Shown here: one piece after another, positions 1,506-15,881 of the stretch
Position numbering within the stretch: position 1 is the first letter of the stretch
Layout of the letters: each line of letters starts with the position of its first letter
Origin: Zetaproteobacteria bacterium
Lineage (GTDB): Bacteria > Pseudomonadota > Zetaproteobacteria > Mariprofundales > Mariprofundaceae
NCBI GenBank assembly: GCA_021545665.1
Contig: JAJRTX010000275.1
Span: 1-15,965 of the forward strand
Length of the DNA: 15,965 nt
Reading direction: 5' to 3'
The notes under the pieces: generated by a model
Told to the model about the DNA's origin: nothing
Database searches by the model: none
The model's input: the letters and a program-made list of their open reading frames with translations, nothing else
Made by a program: the position numbers and the translations under genes

Positions 1506-1549
1506 CATCAGGAATGGCAAATACTTGGTATACAAAAGAGCATGATTTA

Positions 1550-3277
1550 ATGGACAAGCATTCCAGGCGCCTTGATTTATTGTTAATATGCAATTTTGAA
1601 CCAGGTCAGGCGCAAACTTGTAAGGATCATATTAAGGCATTTGATGCCTTTTCCCGGCATAATGTGCAAATTTATTCAGGATTGGGTGATCTGCCGGATG
1701 ATCTTGAGCTGGAACGGTATGACGGAGTTATCCTGCATTTTACGATTTCAGTACGCCTTGACAGTTATCTGTCTCCGCTTGCCAGATATCGATTGCGTTG
1801 CTTCGATGGTCATAAATCTATGTTCATTCAAGATGAATACCGTGAAATTAACGATACGATCGAGGCCATTGATTATCTTGGCATTGATATGTTGTTTACC
1901 TGTGTACCAGAAGGCGAAATAGAAAAGGTCTACCCTCCTGCACGCCTACCTAACCTCAAATGTATCAATGTGCTAACGGGTTATGTTCCACAGCTTTTGC
2001 TTGATAAGGATGTGCCATCCTTTTCCCAACGTACGCTTGATATTGGTTATCGCGGGAGGGTTTATCCTGCATGGCACGGTCAGCTAGGCCGAGAAAAATG
2101 GATGATTGCGGATTTTTTTTTACGCGATGCCCCTAGTTACAATTTAACCTGTGATATTTCTACGCAAGAGAAAGACCGTATTTACGGTGGAAAGTGGATT
2201 GATTTCCTCAGTCAGAGCAAGGCTGTTCTGGCGGTTGAAAGTGGCGCAAGTATATTTGATTTTACTGGCCAGATTGCTAAAAGTGTTGAAGCTCATGTGG
2301 CACGTCAGCCCGAAGTTTCTTATGCTGAATTACGACGGCTTTATTTTGCAGATGAAGAGGGCTCTATCCGCCTTAACCAGATTTCACCGCGCTGTTTTGA
2401 AGCTGCCGCTCTTCGCACACTGATTATCGCATATGAGGGAGAGTATTCCGGGGTACTTGAGCCATGGCGCCATTTCATACCGCTGAAAAAAGATCATTCC
2501 AATATGGATGAAGTAGTGGCTGTCCTTCGCGATAAGGAACGCTCCCAGATGATCATCAAGACAGTCTATGATGAAGTCGCCTGTAATGAAAAATATAGCT
2601 ATAGCGGTTTTATGCAACGGGTTGATAGCGAGCTGCTGACACTGATAAAACCTAACGATTGTGTACGGAAAAGTTATGACAATGTTGAATTTATTAGCCG
2701 TTTTGGGCGTTATGACCGGCCCTTGCGAAGCCATCTTTTAAGATCTTCAGTGATTAGAAAACTCGTTGAGTTCAGTCGTTACAGTGTATTGCCCTTACTT
2801 CCCCGTAGATTACGGCCAGCGGCTACAAATATGGCTAGAAAGACAATCAAGATGATATCAGAGTTACGTGCAAAACGTCGCTTAAAAGTGCCTACTGTCG
2901 TACTTCCCCAACAACTTAAAAAGGTAATTAGGAGTCCACAGGAACAAGAGGAGGTTGTACATTTTCTGGAATTAATCACTCTAATGTCAAGACTATCAAT
3001 ACGAATTAATCGACCAATAATTGTTACTACATACGATAAATCAACGGGTTGTGTAAGCTTCATTCCGGGAACTGGAAACACTGATCAAACATCATACGAT
3101 CAGTTTGAAACAGCGATTAGATATAGTAAAATTAATTGCATACAATGGGATTTTGGATCGCGCATGGGGCTTGGTAAACTTACCCGTTGGCGCAAAATAA
3201 AGAAGTTTCCTGCCATCGTTGGACTGTTGCAGCGTGAACCTGATCTTATTCGTTTCTTCACCCTGAATACCCCCTAG
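1550..3277 (+). CDS. CgeB-like glycosyltransferase with an uncharacterised C-terminal extension
   Basis: This 575-residue protein has no signal peptide or membrane segment that I can see, and it resembles GT-B glycosyltransferases of the spore-maturation CgeB type. The N-terminal part starts with a strand-like LDLLLICNF and contains YDGVILHF and a long first domain. The second domain carries GYRGRVYPAWHGQLGREKW and, at 279-284, SPRCFE followed by AAALRTLIIAYEGEYSG. That block is the typical nucleotide-sugar-binding 'PxRxFEaaa..g..li' pattern of the CgeB C-terminal domain. After about residue 370 comes a basic linker and an unrecognised segment of some 200 residues. I prefer the ATG at 1550 because AAAGAG lies 10 bases upstream; the ATG at 1514, which adds 12 residues, has its AGGA immediately adjacent. 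Sugar donor and acceptor are unknown. The gene probably belongs with wecB in surface glycan synthesis. Confidence 0.7.
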   Translation: MDKHSRRLDLLLICNFEPGQAQTCKDHIKAFDAFSRHNVQIYSGLGDLPDDLELERYDGVILHFTISVRLDSYLSPLARYRLRCFDGHKSMFIQDEYREINDTIEAIDYLGIDMLFTCVPEGEIEKVYPPARLPNLKCINVLTGYVPQLLLDKDVPSFSQRTLDIGYRGRVYPAWHGQLGREKWMIADFFLRDAPSYNLTCDISTQEKDRIYGGKWIDFLSQSKAVLAVESGASIFDFTGQIAKSVEAHVARQPEVSYAELRRLYFADEEGSIRLNQISPRCFEAAALRTLIIAYEGEYSGVLEPWRHFIPLKKDHSNMDEVVAVLRDKERSQMIIKTVYDEVACNEKYSYSGFMQRVDSELLTLIKPNDCVRKSYDNVEFISRFGRYDRPLRSHLLRSSVIRKLVEFSRYSVLPLLPRRLRPAATNMARKTIKMISELRAKRRLKVPTVVLPQQLKKVIRSPQEQEEVVHFLELITLMSRLSIRINRPIIVTTYDKSTGCVSFIPGTGNTDQTSYDQFETAIRYSKINCIQWDFGSRMGLGKLTRWRKIKKFPAIVGLLQREPDLIRFFTLNTP

Positions 3278-3416: not shown

Positions 3417-4832
3417 TTATCCTCTAATCAAAGCCAGTTTTGCATAATCAACCTTTGAGCGATGTCTGCGGTCTAGTGGTATTTCTACAATCTTGACAAC
3501 TTCGATTTCGCCGATCTTGCTTGCCTGACTTTGCCACAAACCGTGTGCCGGTTCCTCGCCCTCAATTGCGAGCTTTGGAGGGGAAGTATCGGGGATCAGC
3601 GCAACTGCATTAACACCATCCCAACTGCGTGCAGCTACCTCAATCTCAAAGGGAAACAATTCGCCAGCTTTTGCTGACCATCTGCCCCGTAACCATAATC
3701 TGCCTTCATTATCAAATCTGCCAGCATCCCCGGTACGATGCCAAACCTCACCATCAATCATAATTTTATTTTCATCATCGCCATAGCCATCAAGGTAAGA
3801 TTTATTGACGTGCTCACCAGTGACAATGATTTCATCTTCTATGATGTCTGTCTTGATTTGTGCAACAGGCTTGCCGGCCAGCAAGCCTGACCCTGTCTCC
3901 ATTGCAGCCCATTCTTCAGGACTAATATCTTCAACTAGTTGATGTGAAATTGGCTCAGCTTCGGTTGAGCCATATACCGCCATGACTCTTGTAGCCGGCA
4001 TTACTTGCTGCAAGCGCTTCATAAGATCCGGAAAAATCGGTCCACCGCCTGTATAGATGGTATCGAGGTTTAGATTGAGAGCTTCGCGGGAGAGAAGATC
4101 ACAAATGGATGGGGGCAGCAACGCCCGGGTAACATTCTGTTTTTTAACCAATTCAGCAATTGAAAAAGGATTCGCCTGATCATGATGGGTCAGTTTCCAG
4201 TTTGGCAGTACAGAAGTTACCCCCAAACCCAGATTAACGATGACAAAAACAGGGAATGCAACCAGATCAATCTCATTGTCATTTTCGGAAGCCAGCATCT
4301 CTGACACACACGCATTTTGCGCAGCAAGAAAGCCGTGACTTCTGACAATGCCTTTGGGTCTGCCGGTCGAACCACTAGTGAATGAAATCAAAGCAGGGTG
4401 ATCGGGCTCTACTTCCGTGAGAATATCATTTTTACTAACGGCATCAGAAACATGTAAGCGAAGAGGAACTTTCCAAAGTTCTGGAGTAATAAAAGGCAGT
4501 ATTTTGTACCAGCTTGAAGTCAGCACGGCCTTGGGACGCGTCATTGAAATTGCATGTTTTAATCCCTTGAGGCCCATTGCAGGTTCAGGAAAAACTATAG
4601 TTGCTCCAAGACGCCAAAGGGCGGCGATGCTGGCATAAAGATCTATGCCCACAGGCATTGCCAACAGAACCCTATCACCACTTTCAACACCTCTGGCGCA
4701 CCAATGGCTTGCCAGTCCTGCAGATTTACGAGCTAAATCCTTGTATGTGATGTACTCACCATTTCCAGCAACCACAGCCACAACATCACTACGCCTGAGG
4801 GCCGTTTCAAGAAATGTCGAAATCAGGTTCAT
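3417..4832 (-). CDS. AMP-forming acyl ligase of the ANL superfamily, OleC-like
   Basis: This enzyme should activate a carboxylic acid with ATP to an acyl-adenylate, then pass it to CoA or another acceptor. Core motifs are all present: P-loop SFTSGSTGRPKG (150-161), YGSTEAEP (287-294), WHRTGD (364-369) and a C-terminal RRHRSKVDY with the expected catalytic lysine at 460. At 471 residues it is short for an acyl-CoA synthetase (usually 500-560). The segment FPVFVIVNLGLGVTSVLP and the RH-x-x-K ending recall OleC-type enzymes, which adenylate beta-hydroxy acids and form beta-lactones. That similarity is from memory and moderate. The start is the ATG at 4832 with AGGCG upstream; a TTG directly before it is possible. 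It is the last gene of the operon, 10 bases after the GNAT gene, and may load the acid moiety of the product. Substrate unknown. Confidence 0.8.
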   Translation of the reverse strand: MNLISTFLETALRRSDVVAVVAGNGEYITYKDLARKSAGLASHWCARGVESGDRVLLAMPVGIDLYASIAALWRLGATIVFPEPAMGLKGLKHAISMTRPKAVLTSSWYKILPFITPELWKVPLRLHVSDAVSKNDILTEVEPDHPALISFTSGSTGRPKGIVRSHGFLAAQNACVSEMLASENDNEIDLVAFPVFVIVNLGLGVTSVLPNWKLTHHDQANPFSIAELVKKQNVTRALLPPSICDLLSREALNLNLDTIYTGGGPIFPDLMKRLQQVMPATRVMAVYGSTEAEPISHQLVEDISPEEWAAMETGSGLLAGKPVAQIKTDIIEDEIIVTGEHVNKSYLDGYGDDENKIMIDGEVWHRTGDAGRFDNEGRLWLRGRWSAKAGELFPFEIEVAARSWDGVNAVALIPDTSPPKLAIEGEEPAHGLWQSQASKIGEIEVVKIVEIPLDRRHRSKVDYAKLALIRG

Positions 4833-4842
4833 CAAATAACGC

Positions 4843-5685
4843 CTAAAGTTTACGACCCATCAGGGCATATCTTCTGAATACATCCGCTTTATGTACCTCA
4901 CTGCGGCTTCGCGATATATTGTCTTCGTGAATGAGGGCGTGGATTACGGATTCAAACCCCATTTCTATGGCGCGTCGGTGATAGGTATCGGCCAAAAGGT
5001 GGCCAACACCGTACATCCTGCTTGCATAGGATTTCAGTATGACAGAGGGCTTGCCGGAATGATCCATGAAGTCAGGTGAACCAAACAAAAATCCCTTAAG
5101 TGCATTTTCCTCATCGCGAGCAAAAAATACATGTTCTTTCTGTATCAAGGGCAGTAGAGGTTCATAAATTGCCATAAAGTCTTCAAAGGCAATGGGCGAG
5201 AAAAATTTGTTCCCTGCAAATGCTTCTGCTGACATGTCGAATAAATCGCGGATCAATGCCTCACCATTCTCACCATCCCATGGCCGGATCGTAACGCCGG
5301 GAATTTCGGCAGGTCTCTTACCCAGTGTATCTGCGAGTTTAGCTTTTGCTGAAATATATTTCGAAATCGGTTCAAAATCTGACTGCTCAAAAATTGCAAG
5401 ATCGTGTTCACCGCTGGTCGGCTCCATCAGAAACGGCGCTGAACCATCGCTTTGGCACACAAGGCGATAAGAGTGCCAGGTATCACCATCAAGTGGTCCC
5501 ACAAGTGCTTCATAACCTTCATCGCTGCATTTGGCAGCAACCCGGGTTAAAAGTTCAACGCCTTCCGCAACAGATTTGAATTTAATACCGCCGATCGCAG
5601 CAGTTTTGAACTCACCCCAGGAGGGCGCCTTTCGATAGAGTGTTGCTTTAGAATTTTCAATTGAAAAGACTTCTGGTTTTACCAT
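4843..5685 (-). CDS. GNAT-superfamily acyltransferase-like protein
   Basis: This is a 280-residue soluble protein. Its C-terminal half (about 150-280) has the look of a GNAT fold: VFFARDEENALKGFLFGSP as the beta-strand pair, then SYASRMYGVGHLLADTYHRR, resembling the acyl-CoA-loop and helix region, then a final strand region with HALIHEDN. The N-terminal half contains a conserved-looking GPLDGDTWHSYRLV (63-76), which I associate with uncharacterised GNAT proteins of this size. It would transfer an acyl group from an acyl-CoA to an amine or hydroxyl. The start at ATG 5685 overlaps the preceding stop by one base (TGATG) and has GGAG eight bases upstream; longer in-frame extensions lie inside the preceding gene. 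It sits directly before the acyl ligase, so the two may act in succession. Substrate unknown. Confidence 0.65.
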   Translation of the reverse strand: MVKPEVFSIENSKATLYRKAPSWGEFKTAAIGGIKFKSVAEGVELLTRVAAKCSDEGYEALVGPLDGDTWHSYRLVCQSDGSAPFLMEPTSGEHDLAIFEQSDFEPISKYISAKAKLADTLGKRPAEIPGVTIRPWDGENGEALIRDLFDMSAEAFAGNKFFSPIAFEDFMAIYEPLLPLIQKEHVFFARDEENALKGFLFGSPDFMDHSGKPSVILKSYASRMYGVGHLLADTYHRRAIEMGFESVIHALIHEDNISRSRSEVHKADVFRRYALMGRKL

Positions 5686-7019
5686 CACAAAACTCCATCG
5701 ATAAAAAACAGGCTTGCTGGAACAATTAATGCAATTCCAAATACTTTTGGGCCACGCCAGCTGGAAAACCAACCGGGCATTGCCCATGCAACAATAGTTG
5801 AAAGAGCGACGCTAAGCAGAACTGGGGGCCATATAGGATCATACCAGAGCGCTTCCTTCGGGTTCATATAGGTGATGAGAGTACATACCCCAACGATAGC
5901 CAGGTTAATAGGAATTACTGTAAACCGCCATTTGCTGCCTTCAGCTTTTCCTAACACAGCCAGAGTTGCAAAAATGGCTGCGGCACCAGCGAAGGTCATA
6001 TTAAAAAGATTGATTGTCGTTGTCTCAATAGCTTCACCAGCGAGCAGCCAAAGCAACGCAACGCCTGCTGAAGCTGCTATTAAGTCAAGAACCGGTGAGC
6101 GGCTTACGCATGGATTAAGTTTGCCAGCGAGAGCATGAGTAAATATCGCAAAAAACGGAAGGGTTGCATTCACCGGATTAGTTACGGTCAGTATCAGAAA
6201 TATCAAAATTGTACGAGATCTGGCTTCGTGGGGTGTGATACCTAAAACACCAGAAAACCGAATTGCAGCTAGTATCATACTTACAAAAAACAAGGCTGCC
6301 AGAATAAGTACCCAGGGTTCTGAGGCAAGATATCTTTCCAGGAATAAGTGAGCGCCTATTGGAACAAACAGATTGTCAAGTCCACGCCATGAATCTGCTT
6401 CAACCAATGCGCAAAAGGCTGCGATAAGCAATGAAAGCAAGATCACATTAACTCGCCCTGCATCACTCATGAGTAGTAAGACAATCATTGCGCTTATCCA
6501 TGTCACCATGAAAAATGCAACCACACCTTCAATGCTTTTTGTGCCTTCTGCAACTGCAAATCGAAGCTTGCCGTAAGTGATACCCACCAATGCAGAAGCG
6601 GTGTCTGATAATGTTATAACAAGCAGAGGCAGGACATATAAAACCGGATTTGCATCTGATCTGAAAAAGAGAAAAGCCACAGAAAGCGCAAGATAAATTT
6701 CACCATAGGAAGCGCGGCTAACCGAATGCAGAACAGAGCCGATACCATGTTCTTTTGTCTTGCTACGCCGCATTGCAAGCATAACAAATATTGTGCAAGT
6801 GATAAGAATCAAAACTGGAATAGAGGTTGAGAAAACCAGTGGAAAGAAAAGGGATGAGATACCCACAGCAACATGGACGATCTTGCGCTGTATCTCAGGT
6901 GATAGCCCAAACTTACCTGCAAGGTAGCGTACGGCTGTCATTAAAAGCAGGATGCTGATGATTACCGGTAGCACCAACCCGATTTCCAACCAGTTTATGA
7001 CCAACCATTTTTCGCTCAA
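5685..7019 (-). CDS. Phytol/dolichol-kinase-like membrane protein with extra C-terminal membrane domain
   Basis: This is a highly hydrophobic 444-residue integral membrane protein with roughly a dozen predicted helices by eye. The first 220 residues carry the CTP-dependent polyprenol kinase pattern (VTE5, Sec59, CDP-DAG-synthase-like): RKIVHVAVG (45-53), SDTASALVG (138-146) followed by YGK, KSIEG (161-165), and EADSWRGLDN (207-216) near the family's 'E...D(N)' site. The known reaction is phosphorylation of phytol, farnesol or dolichol. The second half (about 230-444) is more membrane segments, including TPHEARSRT and TVTNPVNATLPFF, and is unusual for a simple phytol kinase of 200-300 residues. 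The start is probably TTG at 7019, overlapping the preceding stop as TTGA; another TTG lies at 7022 and no ATG is nearby. It would phosphorylate the lipid alcohol of this pathway. Confidence 0.7.
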   Translation of the reverse strand: MSEKWLVINWLEIGLVLPVIISILLLMTAVRYLAGKFGLSPEIQRKIVHVAVGISSLFFPLVFSTSIPVLILITCTIFVMLAMRRSKTKEHGIGSVLHSVSRASYGEIYLALSVAFLFFRSDANPVLYVLPLLVITLSDTASALVGITYGKLRFAVAEGTKSIEGVVAFFMVTWISAMIVLLLMSDAGRVNVILLSLLIAAFCALVEADSWRGLDNLFVPIGAHLFLERYLASEPWVLILAALFFVSMILAAIRFSGVLGITPHEARSRTILIFLILTVTNPVNATLPFFAIFTHALAGKLNPCVSRSPVLDLIAASAGVALLWLLAGEAIETTTINLFNMTFAGAAAIFATLAVLGKAEGSKWRFTVIPINLAIVGVCTLITYMNPKEALWYDPIWPPVLLSVALSTIVAWAMPGWFSSWRGPKVFGIALIVPASLFFIDGVL

Positions 7020-8113
7020 CAAACCTGCTCCACAACGAAATCAGAATAGAAAAACGCCTTGTCCATGGTTTTGCCCCTATCTTCAACCTCCGTTAGACGT
7101 ATCATTTTTTTGGAAAACGAGGTTGGCATGCGGCGTGGCACCATCATGTTCCAATAGACCAAACGTGCTCCAGGGTTTGACGCATTCAAGATTGAACGGT
7201 AAACTTCCTCGAAAATTTCTTCGTTCATGTATTCAAAGATGTCAGAAAGGTTGAAGCCGTCAGCCTTTTCTCCAATTTCCATACAGTCTTCAAGTGAACC
7301 GCAGCGCAGGTCCAGCCTATCCAGTCTCTCGCGAATGGTATTATAATGTTCTTCGCGCCAGGGAAGTGGCAGAGCTTCACCCTGCATACCTTTCAGAATA
7401 TAATGAAGATATGGATTTTTGCTTGGATCCAGATCGATACCCGCGTGATCTAGCCGGCTTGCAACATGATCTGCCAGTGACCCTTCTACATGGTCGAAGA
7501 ATGCAGGATCACGTCCCAGGCGGCCCATGACAAAATTTGAAAAGAAAACTTTCAGCAGTAGCTTCCAGCGCCAATTGTTCCAGCGTGTGTTGAAGAATAT
7601 TTCGCGCTCTGCTCTGGGCTTGGAGTGAAAGACTTCATCTACGGTGGCGCGCGATTGCGCTAAAGGTAAAATTTTGTTCTTGAAAATTCGAAAGTAGCGT
7701 TCAAATTTGCCAACCCCGCCGATACCCAGCAAACTAACTTCATCCCTTTGTTTTGCCCAGAAGATTGCAGTGTTTTCATCCAAATCATTCAAAAGGCGAT
7801 CAAACAGTTCAGCGCGTCTATTTGATTTACGAGCGCCCATTAGCTCCAAAAATTCTGTATGTGACAGCTTTCTGTAAGCTGCAATGCGTATTTCCAGACA
7901 GGCGATTTGTGCTGGTGACAGATCAATCGCAATCACCTTTTCTGGATCAAGCAACAGCATGGCAAGAGCATTGTCACCTGCTGAACATATTGAGACCAGT
8001 CTCTTGCCTTTTTGATTACCCAGCGCATCTACCAGCACGTCCGCATCTTCCCAAAGTTGGGCATAACGAATAGCCTCAAAGTTTGCACGCGAAGCAATAT
8101 CAGCGTTCTTCAT
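7016..8113 (-). CDS. DUF3419 / BtaA-like S-adenosylmethionine 3-amino-3-carboxypropyl transferase
   Basis: BtaA moves the 3-amino-3-carboxypropyl group of SAM onto diacylglycerol to begin betaine-lipid synthesis. This 365-residue homologue has the family landmarks: YAQLWED (17-23), SICSAGDN (41-48), AIDLSPAQ (62-69), LLGIGGVGKFERYF (128-141) and FNLSDIFEYM (287-296). SICSAGDN and AIDLSPAQ form the SAM-binding loops of a Rossmann-like methyltransferase fold. The protein has no signal peptide. The start is the ATG at 8113 with GGAGGG upstream, overlapping the previous stop as ATGA. No BtaB-type N-methyltransferase is present in the window, and the flanking genes are isoprenoid-type, so the acceptor may not be diacylglycerol. 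Family assignment is firm; the reaction here is inferred. Confidence 0.85.
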   Translation of the reverse strand: MKNADIASRANFEAIRYAQLWEDADVLVDALGNQKGKRLVSICSAGDNALAMLLLDPEKVIAIDLSPAQIACLEIRIAAYRKLSHTEFLELMGARKSNRRAELFDRLLNDLDENTAIFWAKQRDEVSLLGIGGVGKFERYFRIFKNKILPLAQSRATVDEVFHSKPRAEREIFFNTRWNNWRWKLLLKVFFSNFVMGRLGRDPAFFDHVEGSLADHVASRLDHAGIDLDPSKNPYLHYILKGMQGEALPLPWREEHYNTIRERLDRLDLRCGSLEDCMEIGEKADGFNLSDIFEYMNEEIFEEVYRSILNASNPGARLVYWNMMVPRRMPTSFSKKMIRLTEVEDRGKTMDKAFFYSDFVVEQVC

Positions 8114-10557
8114 GAAACCCTCCGAACGCGGCCGGTTCCGCCATCAACTTCGATCGTTTCACCGTCCTTTATCCAGCCCATAGCGCCTTTCATACCGACA
8201 ACACAGGGGATGCCCAGTTCTCGAGCAACAATTGCCGAGTGAGATAAAAGGCTACCGCGTTCAACGACAATTGCAGACGCATTTGCGAACACTGCAATCC
8301 AACCCGGATCAGTGTGACGGGCAACAAGTATATCCCCTTTTTTTAGTACTTCCGTCCGCGGATCGTGAATGATTCTTGCATTTGCCGTAACGACACCAGC
8401 GCTACATCCCGTGCCCATTCGCTCGATGTCCTCACTATTTTCTTCCCCGGCAGAGGGAATAATGGATTGCAGGTTTGCAAAGATGGCACCGCGTATTTCG
8501 ATGCGTTCATCGAGATCCGGTTTGGCTTTGGCAAGTTCAAGTTCCTTACGCCTCATATTCACAAGTGTTTTTAAGTCTGTTGTTAGTCCAAAGCCTTCAA
8601 TGGCTCCCAGAATTTCCTGCACCGTCAAAAAGAAAATATCGTCTGCTGCATCCAGCAATCCATTTGCAGTGGATTGTGTTCCAATAGCGCGGAACAAATG
8701 TCGCGCCCGGCCAAATATACGAGTCCGCTCAAAGCGAAGGTTTTCCCTATCGCGTACACGGGCTTTTGCCCATTTCATGACAGTACGTGCAATCACCCTT
8801 TTTAACGGATTACTGGCAAAAAGATCATTGAGGCTTTTTTTCTCTGCATTATTAACGCTCCCCTGGCTTCCACCGCCGCCAGATGCAATGGCGCGATAAA
8901 GTGGTTTTGGGTCACGGTTCAGCGTTATGGATTCCAATTTCAGTTCTTCAACACAACGATCAGAAAACTTGGCCAGATAATCAGATATTTCTTTTACAAG
9001 TTTTGGGTGATTTTTAAGATTTTCGCCATTCCCTTCTGCCAGCTCTTGCTGGAGATCGGTATGACCTTCAAGCATTTTTCCCATATTCCGGATGCGCTGA
9101 GCAGGTTCCGCTGATATAATATCACCCTGGCCAATCATGATATCGTTGTGTATTTCAAGCCCGTTGGAACCCGCCCATTTTTCCAGCATTTTACGCGATG
9201 CACCAAAGGCAATCATACACAGGAAATCATTGATAAGAGGGGCGTCCCAACGGTCAAGCAAGTTAGCCTCTATACGGCGATATTCTTTCGCCAAGTCAGT
9301 AAGAGGCATTGTATCAAGTGTTGAGGCAGGTTGTTCAAGCGCAGAGTTGAGGCGCTTGTAAAAGCCCTTGCGTGTTGATGGCAGCCTAAAGGCTTCGAAG
9401 ATAAGCAGGGCCATTGATTTCGCAACCCGCAACCATTCAATAACAAGGGTCAGCCCCTTGGCCGGAGGCGGACCAAGATTATCTGATATCTCAGCAGGCA
9501 TTGGTTCATCAACGCCCATCATGGTTTCCATATATGCGCTATTAATTGAGAAACCTGGAAGGAGTGCAAGAGCCTTGTACCAATTGACCAGATTATAATA
9601 AATTCTACCGTCTATGCGAGTGAGCATGTTGTCAAAAATAGCAGCATTATAAGAAATCGTTTGCTCACTAACACCCAGTAATTTTACAAAAGAACGATAG
9701 ACACGAGCGTATGCATATTGGGCAAAGGAATAGGTAAGAGGGGAAGTTATCCCCGGATAGGATTCCACAATGTTAGAGTTATCGAAAACCGTAAGCATGG
9801 TGTCTTTAATAGGTTCAGGCAGTAGTTCAGTGGTTATAGGGCGGGCCTGTAGAAGGAAAATCTCATCACCTTCAAATGCCCATTCTATATCCTGCGGGCA
9901 GCCGCAGGTTTCCTCGACACGAGTTGCAAGTTTATGAAGTGCAGCAATATCCTGATTTGTAAGAACGCCTTGTTCCGCTGTTCTTTCCAGAACTTTGCCT
10001 GACTTATCAAGGATATAAGTCTCACCATCTTCCTCGCCGCCAACCAACTTGTCGCCAAGTCCTTCTATCGCAGAAATAACAATTCGGTCCCTCTTTCCAC
10101 TTACTGGGTCGGCGGTGAAAGCGACGCCTGCCACGCGAGCATCAACCATTTGCTGGACCATAACAGCTGTGCCACCTCCTTCACCTTCAAGCCCTCGCGA
10201 TGCGCGGTAACCGGTAACGCTATCCTGCTTTCCGCTCATAAAAACCTTGAAGCATGCAGCCGGCAATTGTCGTTTAGTAAGATTCAGCAGGGACAAAAAC
10301 TGCCCTGCATGGGAATGCGCGTCGCCATCTTCTTCTACAGCTGAAGAGCGCGCTGCAAACGGCCCCGGCCCAAGTTTATTTACCGTTTCCAGCAATTGCA
10401 TGCGGACCGCTTTATCAATACTTTTCTTAGTGAAGGAATCAGGTGTCACCGTCAAAAATGCCGGTATATTAAAACCAGCCTTTAGAAGTCGCATTAGGGC
10501 GGCAGATTTGCCGCCTGTTTTGGCAATATCCTGCTTTCCATCCATTGAGATAATCAC
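8110..10557 (-). CDS. PEP-synthase/rifampicin-phosphotransferase-like dikinase (ATP-grasp + swivelling His domain)
   Basis: This 815-residue cytosolic protein has an N-terminal ATP-grasp domain: GGKSAAL (15-21), then ARSSAVEEDGDAHSHAGQF, GVAFTADPVSGKRD and DIEWAFEGDEIFLLQARPIT. A long central region of about 440 residues begins SPLTYSFAQYAYARVYRSF. The C-terminal phosphohistidine domain has DPGWIAVFANASAIV, GSLLSHSAIVARELGIPCVVG and the catalytic His at about 773. The PEP/pyruvate TIM barrel of true PEP synthase is absent. This order (ATP-grasp, substrate domain, His domain) is that of rifampicin phosphotransferase, which splits ATP to AMP and Pi and phosphorylates a small-molecule hydroxyl through His. 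I chose GTG 10557 because it overlaps the UbiA stop as GTGA and gives a full domain start; ATG 10545 is the alternative. It probably phosphorylates a pathway intermediate. Confidence 0.85.
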   Translation of the reverse strand: MIISMDGKQDIAKTGGKSAALMRLLKAGFNIPAFLTVTPDSFTKKSIDKAVRMQLLETVNKLGPGPFAARSSAVEEDGDAHSHAGQFLSLLNLTKRQLPAACFKVFMSGKQDSVTGYRASRGLEGEGGGTAVMVQQMVDARVAGVAFTADPVSGKRDRIVISAIEGLGDKLVGGEEDGETYILDKSGKVLERTAEQGVLTNQDIAALHKLATRVEETCGCPQDIEWAFEGDEIFLLQARPITTELLPEPIKDTMLTVFDNSNIVESYPGITSPLTYSFAQYAYARVYRSFVKLLGVSEQTISYNAAIFDNMLTRIDGRIYYNLVNWYKALALLPGFSINSAYMETMMGVDEPMPAEISDNLGPPPAKGLTLVIEWLRVAKSMALLIFEAFRLPSTRKGFYKRLNSALEQPASTLDTMPLTDLAKEYRRIEANLLDRWDAPLINDFLCMIAFGASRKMLEKWAGSNGLEIHNDIMIGQGDIISAEPAQRIRNMGKMLEGHTDLQQELAEGNGENLKNHPKLVKEISDYLAKFSDRCVEELKLESITLNRDPKPLYRAIASGGGGSQGSVNNAEKKSLNDLFASNPLKRVIARTVMKWAKARVRDRENLRFERTRIFGRARHLFRAIGTQSTANGLLDAADDIFFLTVQEILGAIEGFGLTTDLKTLVNMRRKELELAKAKPDLDERIEIRGAIFANLQSIIPSAGEENSEDIERMGTGCSAGVVTANARIIHDPRTEVLKKGDILVARHTDPGWIAVFANASAIVVERGSLLSHSAIVARELGIPCVVGMKGAMGWIKDGETIEVDGGTGRVRRVS

Positions 10558-11504
10558 GATATAATCCAACTCGAAATGAAAGGTGCAAAGCCTGCAAGGC
10601 AGTAGCACACAAAAACCCACATCCCTGCAATATCCTCAATCGCCTTTTCCCGTTTAACGTCTGGCGACATGGTAAATTTCTTCGCAGTAAATATGGCGAC
10701 CAAGAGTGCTAAAAAACCAGGGCCGGCAACAGCAAATGGTGCCTGTACCAAATACCCGACGCCTAAAAGTAGAAGCCAGGCAAGCATACACATTGCAGCC
10801 CATATCCATGCTGCGCGTGTTGGCCCCCAAAGAGCTGAATAGGTTTCAACACCATCCAACTCGCTTTCAGGCGCCCAAACTTTCCGGCCAATCTCCAAAA
10901 TGCATCCATTTACAAAACTAAGTGCCAGAAAGAGCCATAAGCCAGCGGGCGGGTAGCCATCATGTGGTATCCATTCCGCAGCAGTTATAAACAGATCTAT
11001 CAATGGCATGATCATCATATGAGAGACAAGGTAAACAAGTGGTCTTGCTTTAAGCCAATCCGGAGCAAAAAACTCAAATGTCATAAAACCGAGCCAAAGC
11101 CAGACGACAGCCAATGGCAACAACAAAAGGGAATTGTTGCTTATTGCCAGGACGATCGCAATCAGCGCTCCTGTCAATGCCATAGCGACAACCAACCGAA
11201 GCGTTATCAGGCCACTGGGTATCGGACGCTTCGGGCGATATTTCCTGTCATCTTCGAGGTCTTTCCATTCATCACAGGCACGCATCTGAAAGAAAATGAT
11301 AAAAGTGACAATCCAGATGCTGATCAGAGTTGAGATAGCGGGTAATTCACGCCCACCAAGATGCGCGGAAACGCTGATGCTGGCAGTTGAAAAAACAGCC
11401 AGCAGCAATGCAGTTTTGAAGACTGGAAACCGTTCAGACTGATAGATCCATAGTCTTTCTATCAGACTGGCATCTGCTTTCGGATGCATGGGAACGCCGA
11501 TCAT
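10554..11504 (-). CDS. UbiA-family prenyltransferase
   Basis: This is a 316-residue polytopic membrane protein with about eight hydrophobic helices. UbiA enzymes transfer a polyprenyl group from its diphosphate to an aromatic or other acceptor at the membrane. The first Asp-rich motif appears as DEWKDLEDD (78-86), that is DExxDxxxD, followed by RPKRPIPSGLI (90-100), which is the conserved RPxRPxPSG. The second motif region reads EIGRKVWAPESELDG (204-218) and is rich in Glu and Asp, but not the usual DxxxDxxGD. Both departures place it outside the ubiquinone, menaquinone and heme O groups. The start is the ATG at 11504, overlapping the HMG-CoA reductase stop as ATGA; a second ATG at residue 6 is possible. 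Placement straight after HMG-CoA reductase supports isoprenoid chemistry. Prenyl donor and acceptor are unknown. Confidence 0.8.
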   Translation of the reverse strand: MIGVPMHPKADASLIERLWIYQSERFPVFKTALLLAVFSTASISVSAHLGGRELPAISTLISIWIVTFIIFFQMRACDEWKDLEDDRKYRPKRPIPSGLITLRLVVAMALTGALIAIVLAISNNSLLLLPLAVVWLWLGFMTFEFFAPDWLKARPLVYLVSHMMIMPLIDLFITAAEWIPHDGYPPAGLWLFLALSFVNGCILEIGRKVWAPESELDGVETYSALWGPTRAAWIWAAMCMLAWLLLLGVGYLVQAPFAVAGPGFLALLVAIFTAKKFTMSPDVKREKAIEDIAGMWVFVCYCLAGFAPFISSWIIS

Positions 11505-12778
11505 CTATGGCGCGCCAGTTTTTGATGCGCATTGGTGAAGTGGTCTGCCGAGATTGCAGCGATGATAGAAATTTCACCGCATAAACAAACAGCTGCCGTG
11601 ACTTCAGCCAATGCTTTGGCATTGCCCGCACCTTTCAATCCAAGTATTGATAAGGCTGATGACTGACTAGGCAGCCCTGTTCCGCCGCCCACTGTGCCAA
11701 CTATAATATTTGGCATAGTGACTGAAAAAAACAATCCGTTATCCCGCGGTTCCATGCGAGTAAAACCAACGGCAGATTCGGCGACACATGCTACGTCCTG
11801 TCCGGTTGCAAGATAAAGTGCTGCCAGACCGTTTGCATAATGGGCTTGGGCCCCAAGTTGCCCGCTTAGAACAGCGCCAAGACTTGCAACCTTTCCATAA
11901 GTGAGCATGGTTTCTGGATCTGCACGTAGATGCTGTCTGATAATATCATAGGGAATTGTTACGCTGGCTGTGACCTTGCGACCGCGGCCATTATGCATAC
12001 CCAAATAGGAAGCCTTCTTGTCACCGGAAAAATTAGCTTCAATGAACCAGTTTTTTGATTTAACAGGGCAGTTTTCGACGATATATTTACACATTGCGTG
12101 TGTTGCAACGGTCACCATGTTTTGCCCAGCCGCGTCAGCTGTCGTGAAACGGCAAACAAGAAAGACAATATCTACGTCCATAAACGGCTCAATAAGAACC
12201 AGTTTGCCAAACCGTGTTGTAGATTCCGCTGCTGCCTTGATTCCTTCCGTGTGCTCCGCAATCCAGTTTATAAAACTTCCGGAACTGATTATGTCATCAA
12301 ATACAAAGGCCGGGGTCCTTAAAACACCTTCCCGCACCACCGCAGCAGATACGCCACCTGCTTTGGAACATACTTCAGCTCCACGCCCATAAGAAGCGAT
12401 CAACGCCGCTTCTGAGGTAGCCATAGGTACAAAATAGTCACCAGAGGCGTTAAGACCGTTAATTCTTAACGGCCCGATTACACCCAGTGGAATTTTAGTT
12501 GTTCCGATATAATTTTCGATGTTGGAGCAGTATGTTTTCGCCCTTGCAATTGACTGGTCATCGGCCAGCTCACTCTTGTCATCATCAGTTGCGGGGCCAT
12601 CATCAATAAGTCGTTGCCAAAAAGAATTTACTGATTGCGGTGTTGATGTCTTCCTTGGCCTTAGTCGCGCAGCAGCAGGGAGGTTTGAAGCAACAAGTCT
12701 TTTGCTCAATTCCATTGTACTGCCCTGGCTCTGCAGGGACTGCAGCATGGCAATTACACTCTGAGGCAATAAATTCAT
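11501..12778 (-). CDS. Hydroxymethylglutaryl-CoA reductase, class I-like, soluble
   Basis: The enzyme reduces HMG-CoA to mevalonate with two NADPH. This 425-residue form lacks the eukaryotic membrane anchor. Signatures include ENYIGTTKIPLGVIGPL (88-104), PMATSEAALIAS (118-129) with catalytic Glu123, DAAGQNM (215-221) in place of the usual DAMGMN coenzyme motif, SGDKK (251-255) with catalytic Lys254, TGQD (325-328) with catalytic Asp328, GGGTGLPSQSSALSILG (364-380), and a C-terminal catalytic His418 (ADHFTNAHQK). All four catalytic residues are therefore in place. It starts at ATG 12778 behind a GGTGG-type ribosome site and is first in the operon. Most alphaproteobacteria make isoprenoids by the MEP route, so an HMG-CoA reductase embedded in a specialised cluster, without other mevalonate genes in view, is notable. 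Confidence 0.9.
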   Translation of the reverse strand: MNLLPQSVIAMLQSLQSQGSTMELSKRLVASNLPAAARLRPRKTSTPQSVNSFWQRLIDDGPATDDDKSELADDQSIARAKTYCSNIENYIGTTKIPLGVIGPLRINGLNASGDYFVPMATSEAALIASYGRGAEVCSKAGGVSAAVVREGVLRTPAFVFDDIISSGSFINWIAEHTEGIKAAAESTTRFGKLVLIEPFMDVDIVFLVCRFTTADAAGQNMVTVATHAMCKYIVENCPVKSKNWFIEANFSGDKKASYLGMHNGRGRKVTASVTIPYDIIRQHLRADPETMLTYGKVASLGAVLSGQLGAQAHYANGLAALYLATGQDVACVAESAVGFTRMEPRDNGLFFSVTMPNIIVGTVGGGTGLPSQSSALSILGLKGAGNAKALAEVTAAVCLCGEISIIAAISADHFTNAHQKLARHR

Positions 12779-12939
12779 ACACCATTTCCCACCAAATCGT
12801 CCTTCGAACTTCGTATGAAAGTAACGTCGAGTACTTAAGAAAGGGTTTTTGGTAGGAATTTTGCCGTGGTTACCATTTGTATAATATTTTTTTAGTATGC
12901 TTGATGGAGTTTGAATTCAAGTGAGCGGACGATTGATTT
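12779..12939. promoter_or_regulatory. Divergent promoter region between HMG-CoA reductase and sulfotransferase genes
   Basis: This 161-base AT-rich gap must hold the promoters of both the seven-gene operon (leftward) and the sulfotransferase/P450 pair (rightward). A consensus TATAAT lies at 12880-12885, rightward, with a poor -35 (AATTTT) 17 bases upstream. Leftward, TATTAT on the minus strand overlaps the same spot, so the two promoters may compete. A perfect palindrome TTGAATTCAA sits at about 12911-12920 and could be an operator. No regulator gene is present in the window. Confidence 0.5.
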
Positions 12940-14061
12940 ATGTCAGAGCAACTAAAACATCGTTGGAGTATCAGCCATAATTATATGACCGGCATTACCT
13001 TTGGAAAGTGGTGCAGATTATTGGCTGACAACAATTTCAATATCTCACCTGCATATTGGCACCGGGCTGCATTTATCTCATTTGCAAGTATGGCGAATTC
13101 AGTTTTTGCAGCAATCGAACATCATAAGTTTGGCGACAAAATCGCGGCTGTAAAAATAACAAAGCCACCTCTTTTTATTCTTGGTCACTGGAGAAGTGGT
13201 ACAACATTGCTGCATGATTTGCTCGCAAAGGATAACGCCCAATTCCAGTTTGCAAACACCTATCAGGTTGTGAACCCTCTTACGTTTCTGACAACTGAAA
13301 ACTTCATTACACGAATGTTTCCCGGTTTGGTTCCACCCAGGCGCCCAATGGATAATATGGAGCTTAAATTTACTTCGCCGCAAGAAGACGAATTTGCACC
13401 GCTTTTAATGACGCTTCAATCCGTATATATGGGTGTTAGTTTCCCCAAACGTACAGAGCATTATGAAAAATATTTGTCCTTCAGGGGGGGGCCAAAGGAT
13501 GAAATAAAAAAGTGGCAGGATGCTTTTGTCCTATTTTGCAAAAAGCTCTCACTTAACGACGATCGCTCACTGTTGTTAAAGTCACCACCTCATACAGCTC
13601 GAATAAAAACCATCCTGGAAATGTTTCCTGATGCGCGGTTTGTTCATATTCATCGAGATCCTTATCGGGTGTTTCAATCCCAAAGGCATTTTTTTGATAC
13701 CGCCGGGTGGTATACGTATTTGCAAAAGCCGGACTTGGCTGCGATTGATGAGGGGATTCTGAGACGGTATGAACGGATGTTTGATGCCTATTTTGAAGAC
13801 CTTTCATTGATCCCTGAAGGTAATTTTTGTGAACTCAGGTTTGATGAACTTGAAGCAAATCCAATAGATGAAATCAAAAGTGTCTATGAACAATTATCTC
13901 TTGATAACTATGAGGGGTTTAAGCCCGATCTGGCGCGGTATGTGTCTTCACTTAAAGGCTATCAAAAAAACAAGTTTTCCAATCTTGATGGTCCCACTCG
14001 TAAAATTGTTGCCGAAAGGTGGAAGAGAAGTTTTGAAACCTGGGGTTATAAAACCTATTGA
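12940..14061 (+). CDS. PAPS-dependent sulfotransferase family protein
   Basis: The family moves a sulfuryl group from PAPS onto a hydroxyl or amine of a sugar, lipid or small molecule. This 373-residue protein has the 5'-phosphosulfate loop GHWRSGTT (82-89) after a hydrophobic strand PPLFIL. The 3'-phosphate-binding segment FVHIHRDPYRVFQS (234-247) follows, with LLLKSPPHTARI (211-222) before it. These match the bacterial Sulfotransfer_3-like group, in which the loop is G(H/C)xRSGTT. No signal peptide or membrane anchor is seen, so it is probably cytosolic. A run of eight G's lies within codons 182-185. The start is the ATG at 12940; the ribosome site is weak. It diverges from the HMG-CoA reductase operon and precedes a P450, so it may sulfate the operon's product. 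Confidence 0.85.
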   Translation: MSEQLKHRWSISHNYMTGITFGKWCRLLADNNFNISPAYWHRAAFISFASMANSVFAAIEHHKFGDKIAAVKITKPPLFILGHWRSGTTLLHDLLAKDNAQFQFANTYQVVNPLTFLTTENFITRMFPGLVPPRRPMDNMELKFTSPQEDEFAPLLMTLQSVYMGVSFPKRTEHYEKYLSFRGGPKDEIKKWQDAFVLFCKKLSLNDDRSLLLKSPPHTARIKTILEMFPDARFVHIHRDPYRVFQSQRHFFDTAGWYTYLQKPDLAAIDEGILRRYERMFDAYFEDLSLIPEGNFCELRFDELEANPIDEIKSVYEQLSLDNYEGFKPDLARYVSSLKGYQKNKFSNLDGPTRKIVAERWKRSFETWGYKTY

Positions 14062-14118: not shown

Positions 14119-15423
14119 ATGACACAAATAAAAACTGATAAGCCACAACGGGCACCTGGCCCCAAGGGAACCTTCTTTTTGGGATCTCTTTCTGCTGTCA
14201 AGCAGGATGCAATTGGCTTTCTATCTCAGTCAGTGGATAAGTATGGTGATATTGTTCGTTTCCGATTCGGTCCGATTACGGCCCATTTGATCAACCACCC
14301 AGATTACATTGAACAGGTATTGTCCCGTGATGCAGAAAATTACGACAAGAATACACACAGCGTTCAACAAATTCGAGCAACATGCGGTGATAGTCTTCTC
14401 TCTGCCAATGAACAAGCCTGGCAACGTCATCGCAAGTTAATCCAGCCCGTATTCCAGCCTCGCTATCTGGAAGCGATTGATTCTACAATCGATCAATCCA
14501 TGCAGCCAATGCTGGAGCGCTGGCAAAAAACTGCGGATAATAATGGCTCAATTGATATCGTGTCCGAGATGATGCATTTAGTGATTTCAACATCTGCCAA
14601 TATTCTATTTGGATCTGATGTAAATACTGCATTGATCGAAAATTCTCTTGCCATTATTTTAGATGATACTTGGCGGCGTCTGCAGTCACCTTTGAATTTA
14701 TCGGCACTTTCGGACAAATTTCACAGGCGGAAATTTAAACAAGCAGTTGCTGAAATTGACAGTATTATTTTCAGGATTATTAAGGACCGTCGCAATAATA
14801 ACATCACCAGGGATGACTTGCTCTCACGCCTGTTAAATGCACATGAAGCCGAAGATGCTGAGGGTTTAACCGACAAAGAGCTTCGTGATGCTGCAGTAAC
14901 TTTATTGCTGGCTGGGCATGAGACTACAGCCAATGCCCTGACATGGGCATTTTATCTTGTTGCAAAATCACCAGGACATAAGTTTGAAGAAACTGACATG
15001 AATGATGTGTTTTCAGAAGCAGTCCGCATGTATCCCTCAATCTGGATTATTGAGCGTCGGACAATCAATGATCAGCAAATTGGTGATTATCACATTCCTC
15101 GCAGGTCATCAGTTCTCATTTCACCTTACCTGCTTCATCGCCACAAGAGTTTCTGGATTGATGCAGAACAATTTGACCCGGGTCGATTTTCTGAAGAGAA
15201 AAAAAATAGCCGCCCGCGCAATGCCTATATTCCATTTGGATTGGGAAAACACCGCTGTGTTGGGTTACATATGGCCCGCAAGGTAGCAACCCGAGTTATG
15301 GCAAATGTGTATAAACAGTTTCATCTTCAACTCGTGAACAATGATATTCCAGAAATGGTTCCCGGAATTACGTTGAGACACCTGGGTGAGCTACGCATGA
15401 ATATCAGGAAACATAATGAATAG
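14119..15423 (+). CDS. Cytochrome P450 with a shortened I-to-K helix connection
   Basis: This haem monooxygenase would hydroxylate or otherwise oxidise a substrate using an external ferredoxin/reductase pair; none is encoded nearby. The 434-residue protein has the proline-rich start RAPGPKG, the C-helix WQRHRKLIQP, the I-helix AGHETT (265-270) with its oxygen-activating Thr, the K-helix EAVR (300-303; ExxR), and the haem loop FGLGKHRCVG with the ligand Cys380. It lacks an N-terminal membrane anchor, as is usual for bacterial P450s. Only 33 residues separate the HETT His from the ExxR Glu, whereas I would expect roughly 55, so the J and J' helices are largely missing. The gene starts 57 bases after the sulfotransferase stop on the same strand. 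The two are probably cotranscribed and may be tailoring enzymes for the divergent operon. Confidence 0.92.
   Translation: MTQIKTDKPQRAPGPKGTFFLGSLSAVKQDAIGFLSQSVDKYGDIVRFRFGPITAHLINHPDYIEQVLSRDAENYDKNTHSVQQIRATCGDSLLSANEQAWQRHRKLIQPVFQPRYLEAIDSTIDQSMQPMLERWQKTADNNGSIDIVSEMMHLVISTSANILFGSDVNTALIENSLAIILDDTWRRLQSPLNLSALSDKFHRRKFKQAVAEIDSIIFRIIKDRRNNNITRDDLLSRLLNAHEAEDAEGLTDKELRDAAVTLLLAGHETTANALTWAFYLVAKSPGHKFEETDMNDVFSEAVRMYPSIWIIERRTINDQQIGDYHIPRRSSVLISPYLLHRHKSFWIDAEQFDPGRFSEEKKNSRPRNAYIPFGLGKHRCVGLHMARKVATRVMANVYKQFHLQLVNNDIPEMVPGITLRHLGELRMNIRKHNE

Positions 15424-15804: not shown

Positions 15805-15881
<77 letters not shown>

Follow-up and report, generated by a model that had tools for sequence, protein, structure and literature searches.

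A conserved seven-gene bacterial cassette with an altered HMG-CoA reductase homolog may produce a lipid-like small molecule

In the salvage of phytol by plants, the kinases VTE5 and VTE6 convert the alcohol to a phosphate and then to a diphosphate, and a UbiA-type transferase acts next. BtaA and BtaB carry out the synthesis of betaine lipids. RPH is rifampicin phosphotransferase, while PigC and RedH are prodiginine ligases; all of these act on small molecules. The Ebo operon includes a UbiA-like protein, EboC. Here we describe a seven-gene operon that brings relatives of several of these proteins together with a homolog of 3-hydroxy-3-methylglutaryl-CoA (HMG-CoA) reductase. It lies on the minus strand (12778-3417) of contig JAJRTX010000275.1 from a Zetaproteobacteria bacterium of the family Mariprofundaceae (assembly GCA_021545665.1); by "the window" we mean the whole stretch of 15,965 nucleotides that we analyzed. 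On balance, and by a narrow lead over doubt, we favor the view that the operon is a single mobile cassette whose genes jointly make a small, lipid-like, amphiphilic molecule with an N-acylated 3-amino-3-carboxypropyl (homoserine-type) group, and that the HMG-CoA reductase homolog is not a supplier of isoprenoids.

The genes are tightly packed, and all seven are complete open reading frames (ORFs) in the ORF list. In the direction of transcription, they encode an HMG-CoA-reductase-like protein of the class I type (11501-12778; PF00368, E = 1.4e-109); a UbiA-superfamily membrane protein (10554-11504; PF01040, E = 8.7e-14); a phosphotransferase that resembles RPH and phosphoenolpyruvate synthase (PPS), with an ATP-grasp domain and a C-terminal His domain (8110-10545); a DUF3419 (BtaA-like) protein, which is a putative S-adenosylmethionine (SAM) 3-amino-3-carboxypropyl transferase (7016-8113; PF11899, E = 1.6e-59); a membrane protein that resembles polyprenol, phytol, or diacylglycerol kinases, with an extra C-terminal helical half (5685-7022); a putative tandem GNAT acyltransferase of 280 amino acids (4843-5685); and an AMP-forming acid-CoA ligase that is nearest to the PRK09274 group (3417-4835; PF00501, E = 5.2e-42). 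The Pfam families in the operon are HMG-CoA_red, UbiA, PPDK_N with PEP-utilizers, DUF3419, and AMP-binding; a Pfam search gave no match for the kinase-like and GNAT products. Four of the six junctions between genes overlap by 1-7 nucleotides, and at the two remaining junctions about 7-10 nucleotides separate the genes. Both the HMG-CoA reductase/UbiA and the PPS-like/DUF3419 junctions are ATGA overlaps, the DUF3419 and kinase-like genes overlap at a TTG start, and the overlap of the kinase-like and GNAT genes is TGATG. This layout agrees with the translational coupling proposed in an initial annotation of this DNA. (We corrected the start of the GNAT gene from 5787 to 5685. For the PPS-like gene, 10545 is the most likely start rather than 10620, and the ligase may start at the ATG at 4832.)

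The seven genes are one conserved unit with a kept order. We used an alignment of 26 relatives of the DUF3419 protein to scan genomes, one for each species, and we analyzed the best 80 of at least 507 confirmed DUF3419 relatives along with one Roseinatronobacter plasmid, which gave 81 loci. All seven genes are present, in a single order and on a single strand, in 73 of these loci (including L046, which has fragmented matches). In the remaining eight, genes are missing solely on the side where the contig ends. (On the Roseinatronobacter plasmid, the reductase gene spans the start of the record.) The initial annotation had proposed joint occurrence of the seven genes as a check, and the loci bear it out. 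From these loci and the window, we extracted 72 reductases, 60 UbiA proteins, 77 PPS-like proteins, 82 DUF3419 proteins, 79 kinase-like proteins, 78 GNAT proteins, and 77 ligases; the other sequences were left out by filters for length or completeness, except that at least one UbiA protein (that of L014) was lost to an extraction fault.

The 81 loci are the closest relatives and not a random sample; draws of whole genomes are a less biased test. Among 248 genomes of one family, the reductase profile matched 15. In 13 of these, the reductase is of the cassette type and scores at least 545 bits; the remaining two have reductases of other types, which score 318 and 227 bits. The profile for the kinase-like protein also matched 15 of the 248 genomes: the same 13 and two more. 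In all 13, the reductase and kinase-like genes share a strand, at a distance of 5.4-5.7 kb. At least four of these genomes (G010, G017, G019, and G021) are those of loci that were already in the locus sample. In the two genomes with only the kinase-like gene, the start of the contig falls inside the PPS-like gene, and one of these contigs, equal in length to that of L072, is probably identical to it. In wider draws, the cassette is patchy and rare. Among 385 genomes from the class, the cassette-type reductase was found in the centre genome alone, and the only hits of the kinase-like profile among 398 genomes from the phylum were the centre genome and a single short relative, with no variant cluster. 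One match to the cassette-type reductase is split in two (G429:C1:2551296-2552557), which reflects decay or an assembly error.

We then compared the 72 reductases (from 71 loci and the window) to human, plant, and archaeal chains, on which the residues were mapped. We take the catalytic residues, in human numbering, to be Glu559, Lys691, Asp767, and His866, and the equivalents of all four are invariant in the 72 operon reductases. (Position 413, which has His in 47, Asp in 15, Glu in 6, Gln in 3, and Arg in 1 of the 72, was rejected as the catalytic histidine: a count along the human sequence identified position 418, which is His in 72/72.) Two other residues, Ser684 and Lys735, hold the distal carboxylate of HMG in known structures, and both have changed. 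The position of Ser684 is Glu in all 72 sequences (Glu247 in the window's protein), and the KNL motif that contains Lys735 is absent from all 72. Where four cassette reductases were aligned with non-cassette ones, column 735 is Ala. A shift of the lysine to position 296 of the window's protein was considered and rejected, as that column has Arg in 42, Gln in 24, Lys in 4, and Glu in 2 of the 72. For comparison, we used 12 non-cassette reductases: the three chains (human, plant, and archaeal) plus nine proteins from genomes in the class and family draws. None of the 12 has Glu at 684, and nine of them keep both Ser684 and Lys735 (six of these nine are uncharacterized proteins from the genomes of the draws).

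The genomic setting also bears on the role of the reductase. HMG-CoA synthase (PF08540) was found in 0 of 33 carrier genomes and in 4 of 14 controls. Mevalonate kinase (TIGR00549) was over the cut-off in none of the carriers, where there were two weak matches below it, and in 5 of the 14 controls. Dxr, from the methylerythritol phosphate (MEP) route, was over the cut-off in 26 of the 33 carriers, and the seven others may use DXR-II. DXR-II is reported mainly from the Rhizobiales among the alphaproteobacteria, and one table of that paper has a row for Chelativorans (PMC3847144). An HMG-CoA reductase homolog beside a UbiA protein and two phosphotransferase-like genes could have been a mevalonate-pathway operon that supplies isoprenoid precursors. 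Since the partner enzymes of the mevalonate pathway were not found and Dxr is so frequent, we rejected this explanation, which we consider barely credible. The case for mevalonate formation, which the initial annotation had included in the pathway, is weakened, at least as a source of isoprenoids. Instead, the retention of the catalytic residues, the changes in the pocket, and the failure to find HMG-CoA synthase together suggest that the operon enzyme still reduces a thioester but acts on another substrate.

The DUF3419 protein scores 202.5 bits against PF11899, whose gathering cut-off is 28.2. The copies in the cassette score 175-207 bits, as compared to 345-379 bits for a separate BtaA-type paralog that is found in seven of the 33 carrier genomes. 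Judging from these scores, the cassette proteins are a subfamily distinct from canonical BtaA; the initial annotation had called the enzyme BtaA-like. DUF3419 relatives transfer the aminocarboxypropyl group from SAM, and we predict this activity for the cassette protein. The presence of a protein from BtaA's family raises the possibility that the cassette encodes a variant of the pathway for the betaine lipid diacylglyceryltrimethylhomoserine (DGTS). We rejected this as very improbable, given the low scores relative to the BtaA-type paralog and the lack of a methyltransferase among the seven genes. In contrast, a methyltransferase that we take to be BtaB-like is among the longest ORFs in four of five BtaA-type loci. 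Elsewhere, a distant DUF3419 gene on the Rhizobium plasmid pMK-2 (L091:835-5155) is accompanied by an MBL-fold (metallo-beta-lactamase) hydrolase, a "CoF synthetase", and a hypothetical protein; since this is a different row of genes, DUF3419 proteins may serve other pathways too. On a plasmid of Deefgea piscis (L092:5168-7397), a DUF3419 gene lies between genes for an iron-containing redox enzyme and an adenosylmethionine decarboxylase.

The UbiA protein exceeds the cut-off for PF01040 (51.8 bits versus 34.2), and its first motif, DExKDxxxD (a variant of NDxxDxxxD), is present in all 60 extracted sequences. The second Asp-rich motif is absent: the cassette proteins have GRKxW...E..GVxTY where the UbiA proteins of four carrier genomes have YDTxYAxxDxxDD. 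(The comparison included those four proteins and one archaeal chain.) Prenyl transfer by this protein, as originally proposed, fits the family and the first motif and is made uncertain by the loss of the second.

In the PPS-like protein, Pfam identifies PPDK_N and PEP-utilizers alone. PEP-utilizers is at residues 760-830 of 836, and the C-terminal barrel that binds phosphoenolpyruvate (PEP) or pyruvate was not found by Pfam. On this domain content, we rejected its identification as a PEP synthase. The best PDB chain is 5fbs (E = 3.5e-42), which was deposited as phosphoenolpyruvate synthase and which we take to be the RPH of Listeria. His794 is present in 75 of the 77 PPS-like sequences; one exception is a gap and the other is an evidently misaligned stretch. 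The protein falls below the cut-offs of the PRK06241.2-2 model (631 bits versus 883) and of the rifampicin phosphotransferase model (NF041857; 196 bits versus 999), and it scores 243 bits with the PigC model. Relatives of the PPS-like protein are found on Streptomyces plasmids (L132:4669-14991 and L133:10024-16702), beside AfsA-related and isoprenylcysteine methyltransferase-type genes. One of these neighborhoods also has a nitroreductase and a P450, and the other has an oxidoreductase.

Some sources give relatives of the kinase-like protein the name phytol/dolichol kinase or diacylglycerol/polyprenol kinase. A stand-alone relative of 221 amino acids shares its motifs and covers positions 10-225 of the kinase-like model alone. 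The structure model is all-helical (pLDDT, the predicted local distance difference test, is 90.2). A fold search with this model gave no matches at E = 0.001 or better, and the fold may nonetheless be a known one.

The ligase scores 259.7 bits against NF006754, below that model's cut-off of 478. The product of 5685-4843 models as an acyltransferase: the predicted structure is a tandem GNAT in which the GNAT fold and the acyl-CoA loop are present, in line with the acyl transfer that had been proposed. It is distantly YghO-like, which fits a ceramide-like pathway. In such a pathway, the aminocarboxypropyl group would be added first, the ligase would activate its carboxyl, the reductase would reduce it to an amino alcohol, the GNAT protein would N-acylate it, and the kinase-like proteins would phosphorylate it. 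This scheme accounts for one carboxyl, one ligase, and one reductase, and the Glu that is invariant in the reductase pocket would be a possible partner for an ammonium group. But it offers no obvious role for the UbiA protein, and our literature search did not confirm the kinship between YghO and bacterial ceramide synthase. All told, we consider the ceramide-like pathway improbable. PMC11087976 terms YghO an acyltransferase.

For the lipid-like product that we favor, the pathway might run as follows. First, the ligase would convert an acid to a CoA thioester. The acid might be an isoprenoid or a fatty acid with a 3-methyl branch, and such an isoprenoid acid would look like HMG-CoA near the thioester. 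Second, the reductase homolog would use NADPH to reduce the thioester to a primary alcohol. Third, the kinase-like membrane protein would form the monophosphate, and fourth, the PPS/RPH-like enzyme would add a second phosphate or otherwise phosphorylate an intermediate. Fifth, the UbiA-type protein would move the activated chain onto an acceptor. Sixth, the DUF3419 enzyme would put the aminocarboxypropyl group of SAM on a hydroxyl, forming an ether, and seventh, the GNAT protein would acylate the new amine. Hydroxylation by a P450 and sulfation by a sulfotransferase would be optional, where those genes are present. The exact order of these steps is doubtful. A more novel proposal is possible but less likely than not: that this self-contained cassette makes lipid-like natural products of a new family, and that its HMG-CoA reductase has turned into a dedicated acyl-CoA-to-alcohol reductase for another substrate, which feeds a bacterial alcohol-phosphate-diphosphate-UbiA route with an N-acylated homoserine-type end.

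Several points weigh against these proposals. Completeness is not given for the 33 carrier genomes, several of which are metagenome bins, and any single absence is therefore weak. Without the second UbiA motif, the use of an alkyl diphosphate is doubtful, and no Pfam or PDB match supports the kinase assignment for the kinase-like protein. A glutamate in place of Ser684 does not seem to be what a purely hydrophobic tail needs; it may pair with a kept Lys or Arg, or it may bind a polar substrate. Also, Lys735 is absent from three of the 12 non-cassette reductases, all of which are orphan alphaproteobacterial proteins. The loss of Lys735 thus also occurs outside the cassette; Glu at 684, among the reductases compared, does not. 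Altered reductases may be more widespread. (The three orphans are L084:1187-2443, L085:1474-2661, and L137:4150-5445, with no other operon genes within the 3.9-9.5 kb that we fetched. L084 and L085 have Pro in place of Ser684 and Ser in place of Arg590.)

Two further points against our proposals also favor a specific alternative. The equivalents of Arg590, Asp690, and Lys692 are, like the four catalytic residues, invariant in all 72 operon reductases, so HMG-like binding may still occur. And HMG-CoA lyase, which we take as a marker of leucine breakdown via HMG-CoA, was over the cut-off in 21 of the 33 carriers, so most of them could draw on HMG-CoA from leucine. The operon protein might therefore be a true HMG-CoA reductase that uses HMG-CoA from leucine breakdown, with mevalonate as a C6 unit of the product, phosphorylated by the PPS-like or the kinase-like protein, rather than as a precursor of isopentenyl diphosphate. 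This explanation must contend with the two changes in the pocket, given that most of the non-cassette reductases keep both residues. Also, 12 of the 33 genomes have neither an over-cut-off HMG-CoA lyase nor an HMG-CoA synthase, although one of the 12 (G022) has a split match to the lyase (171 bits), which is probably a broken or misassembled copy. We view a true HMG-CoA reductase as unlikely, and we prefer a thioester reductase with another substrate.

Divergent from the operon, across an intergenic region of 161 bases (12779-12939, as delimited by the ORF ends and the sequence), is a complete ORF for a sulfotransferase on the plus strand (12940-14061; PF13469 or Sulfotransfer_3, E = 2.5e-35). 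It is followed by a cytochrome P450 on the same strand (14119-15423; PF00067, E = 1.5e-71), which lies beyond the range of 3417-14061 that had been annotated. The divergent arrangement is as first described, but the pair is an accessory module, found at 15 of the 81 loci. A second type of P450, which is 22-23% identical to the window's P450, adjoins the cassette in L019, L021, L022, L035, L048, and L075, and these six loci lack the sulfotransferase/P450 pair. Both types of P450 have terpene oxidases as their two closest NCBIfam models, with scores well short of the cut-offs, and the third is a P450 for ribosomally synthesized and post-translationally modified peptides (RiPPs). The closest models are a weak hint in the direction of terpenes.

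Little is common to the flanks overall. Besides the sulfotransferase and P450 groups, clustering of the flanking proteins gave one group from 21 loci (about 349 amino acids, at mixed distances and on both sides), and the other groups were from four loci or fewer each. In one strain, the cassette is on a plasmid. In a midpoint-rooted FastTree tree, for which the alignments of 71 sets were concatenated, two members of Halomonas (Gammaproteobacteria) cluster with three of Chelativorans (Alphaproteobacteria), with a local support of 1.0. This grouping suggests that the cassette has been transferred laterally. Elsewhere in the window are a protein of 587 residues with no Pfam match (1514-3277) and a UDP-GlcNAc 2-epimerase gene (102-1157), which are possibly surface polysaccharide genes, and, beyond the accessory module, a tRNA-Met (cat) on the minus strand (15805-15881).

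We searched open-licence full-text literature for the set of genes or its parts and found no description of a seven-gene pathway among the titles and abstracts listed; most subscription papers are outside the scope of this search. The kinds of enzymes are known, but we could not find the combination or the altered reductase described in that literature, which agrees with the initial view that the gene set is undescribed. Why bacteria with the MEP route carry orphan HMG-CoA reductases is a recognized puzzle. For instance, a 2026 review states that several Streptomyces have HmgR beside a complete MEP pathway and that it needs further study whether this single gene contributes to isoprenoids (PMC13001223). 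The cassette offers a fixed genomic context for such a reductase and a testable alternative. If its substrate is not HMG-CoA, then a textbook family of drug targets (the target of the statins) has a second chemistry. Because the carriers include named, cultured strains from marine and soil environments (Roseovarius nubinhibens ISM and Ruegeria arenilitoris are two cultured carriers), the product can be sought directly.

How does the cassette compare to the described systems? Like the Ebo operon, it has a UbiA-like protein within a cluster of unknown product, but its UbiA protein scores 22 bits with the EboC model, whose cut-off is 250, and we know of no further family that the two have in common. 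Like class I HMG-CoA reductases, the cassette's enzyme belongs to that sequence family and has its catalytic residues; unlike them, it has Glu for Ser684, it has lost the Lys735 motif, and its 33 carriers have no detected HMG-CoA synthase. The PPS-like protein shares an ATP-grasp domain and a terminal His domain with RPH and with PigC and RedH, and 5fbs is its closest PDB chain, but it fits the uncharacterized PRK06241.2-2 model far better than it fits RPH or PigC. As with BtaA, we expect the DUF3419 enzyme to transfer SAM's aminocarboxypropyl group; unlike the BtaA/BtaB system, the cassette has a separate subfamily and no methyltransferase, and the BtaA-type paralog is extra in the carriers that have it. 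Finally, as in the salvage of phytol, the cassette combines a membrane protein that resembles kinases with another phosphorylating enzyme and a member of the UbiA superfamily, all encoded next to one another, which parallels the third through fifth steps of our proposal. Unlike phytol salvage, its second phosphotransferase is of the PPS/RPH type and its UbiA protein lacks the second motif, and the cassette adds an acid ligase, an HMG-CoA reductase homolog, a DUF3419 protein, and a GNAT protein.

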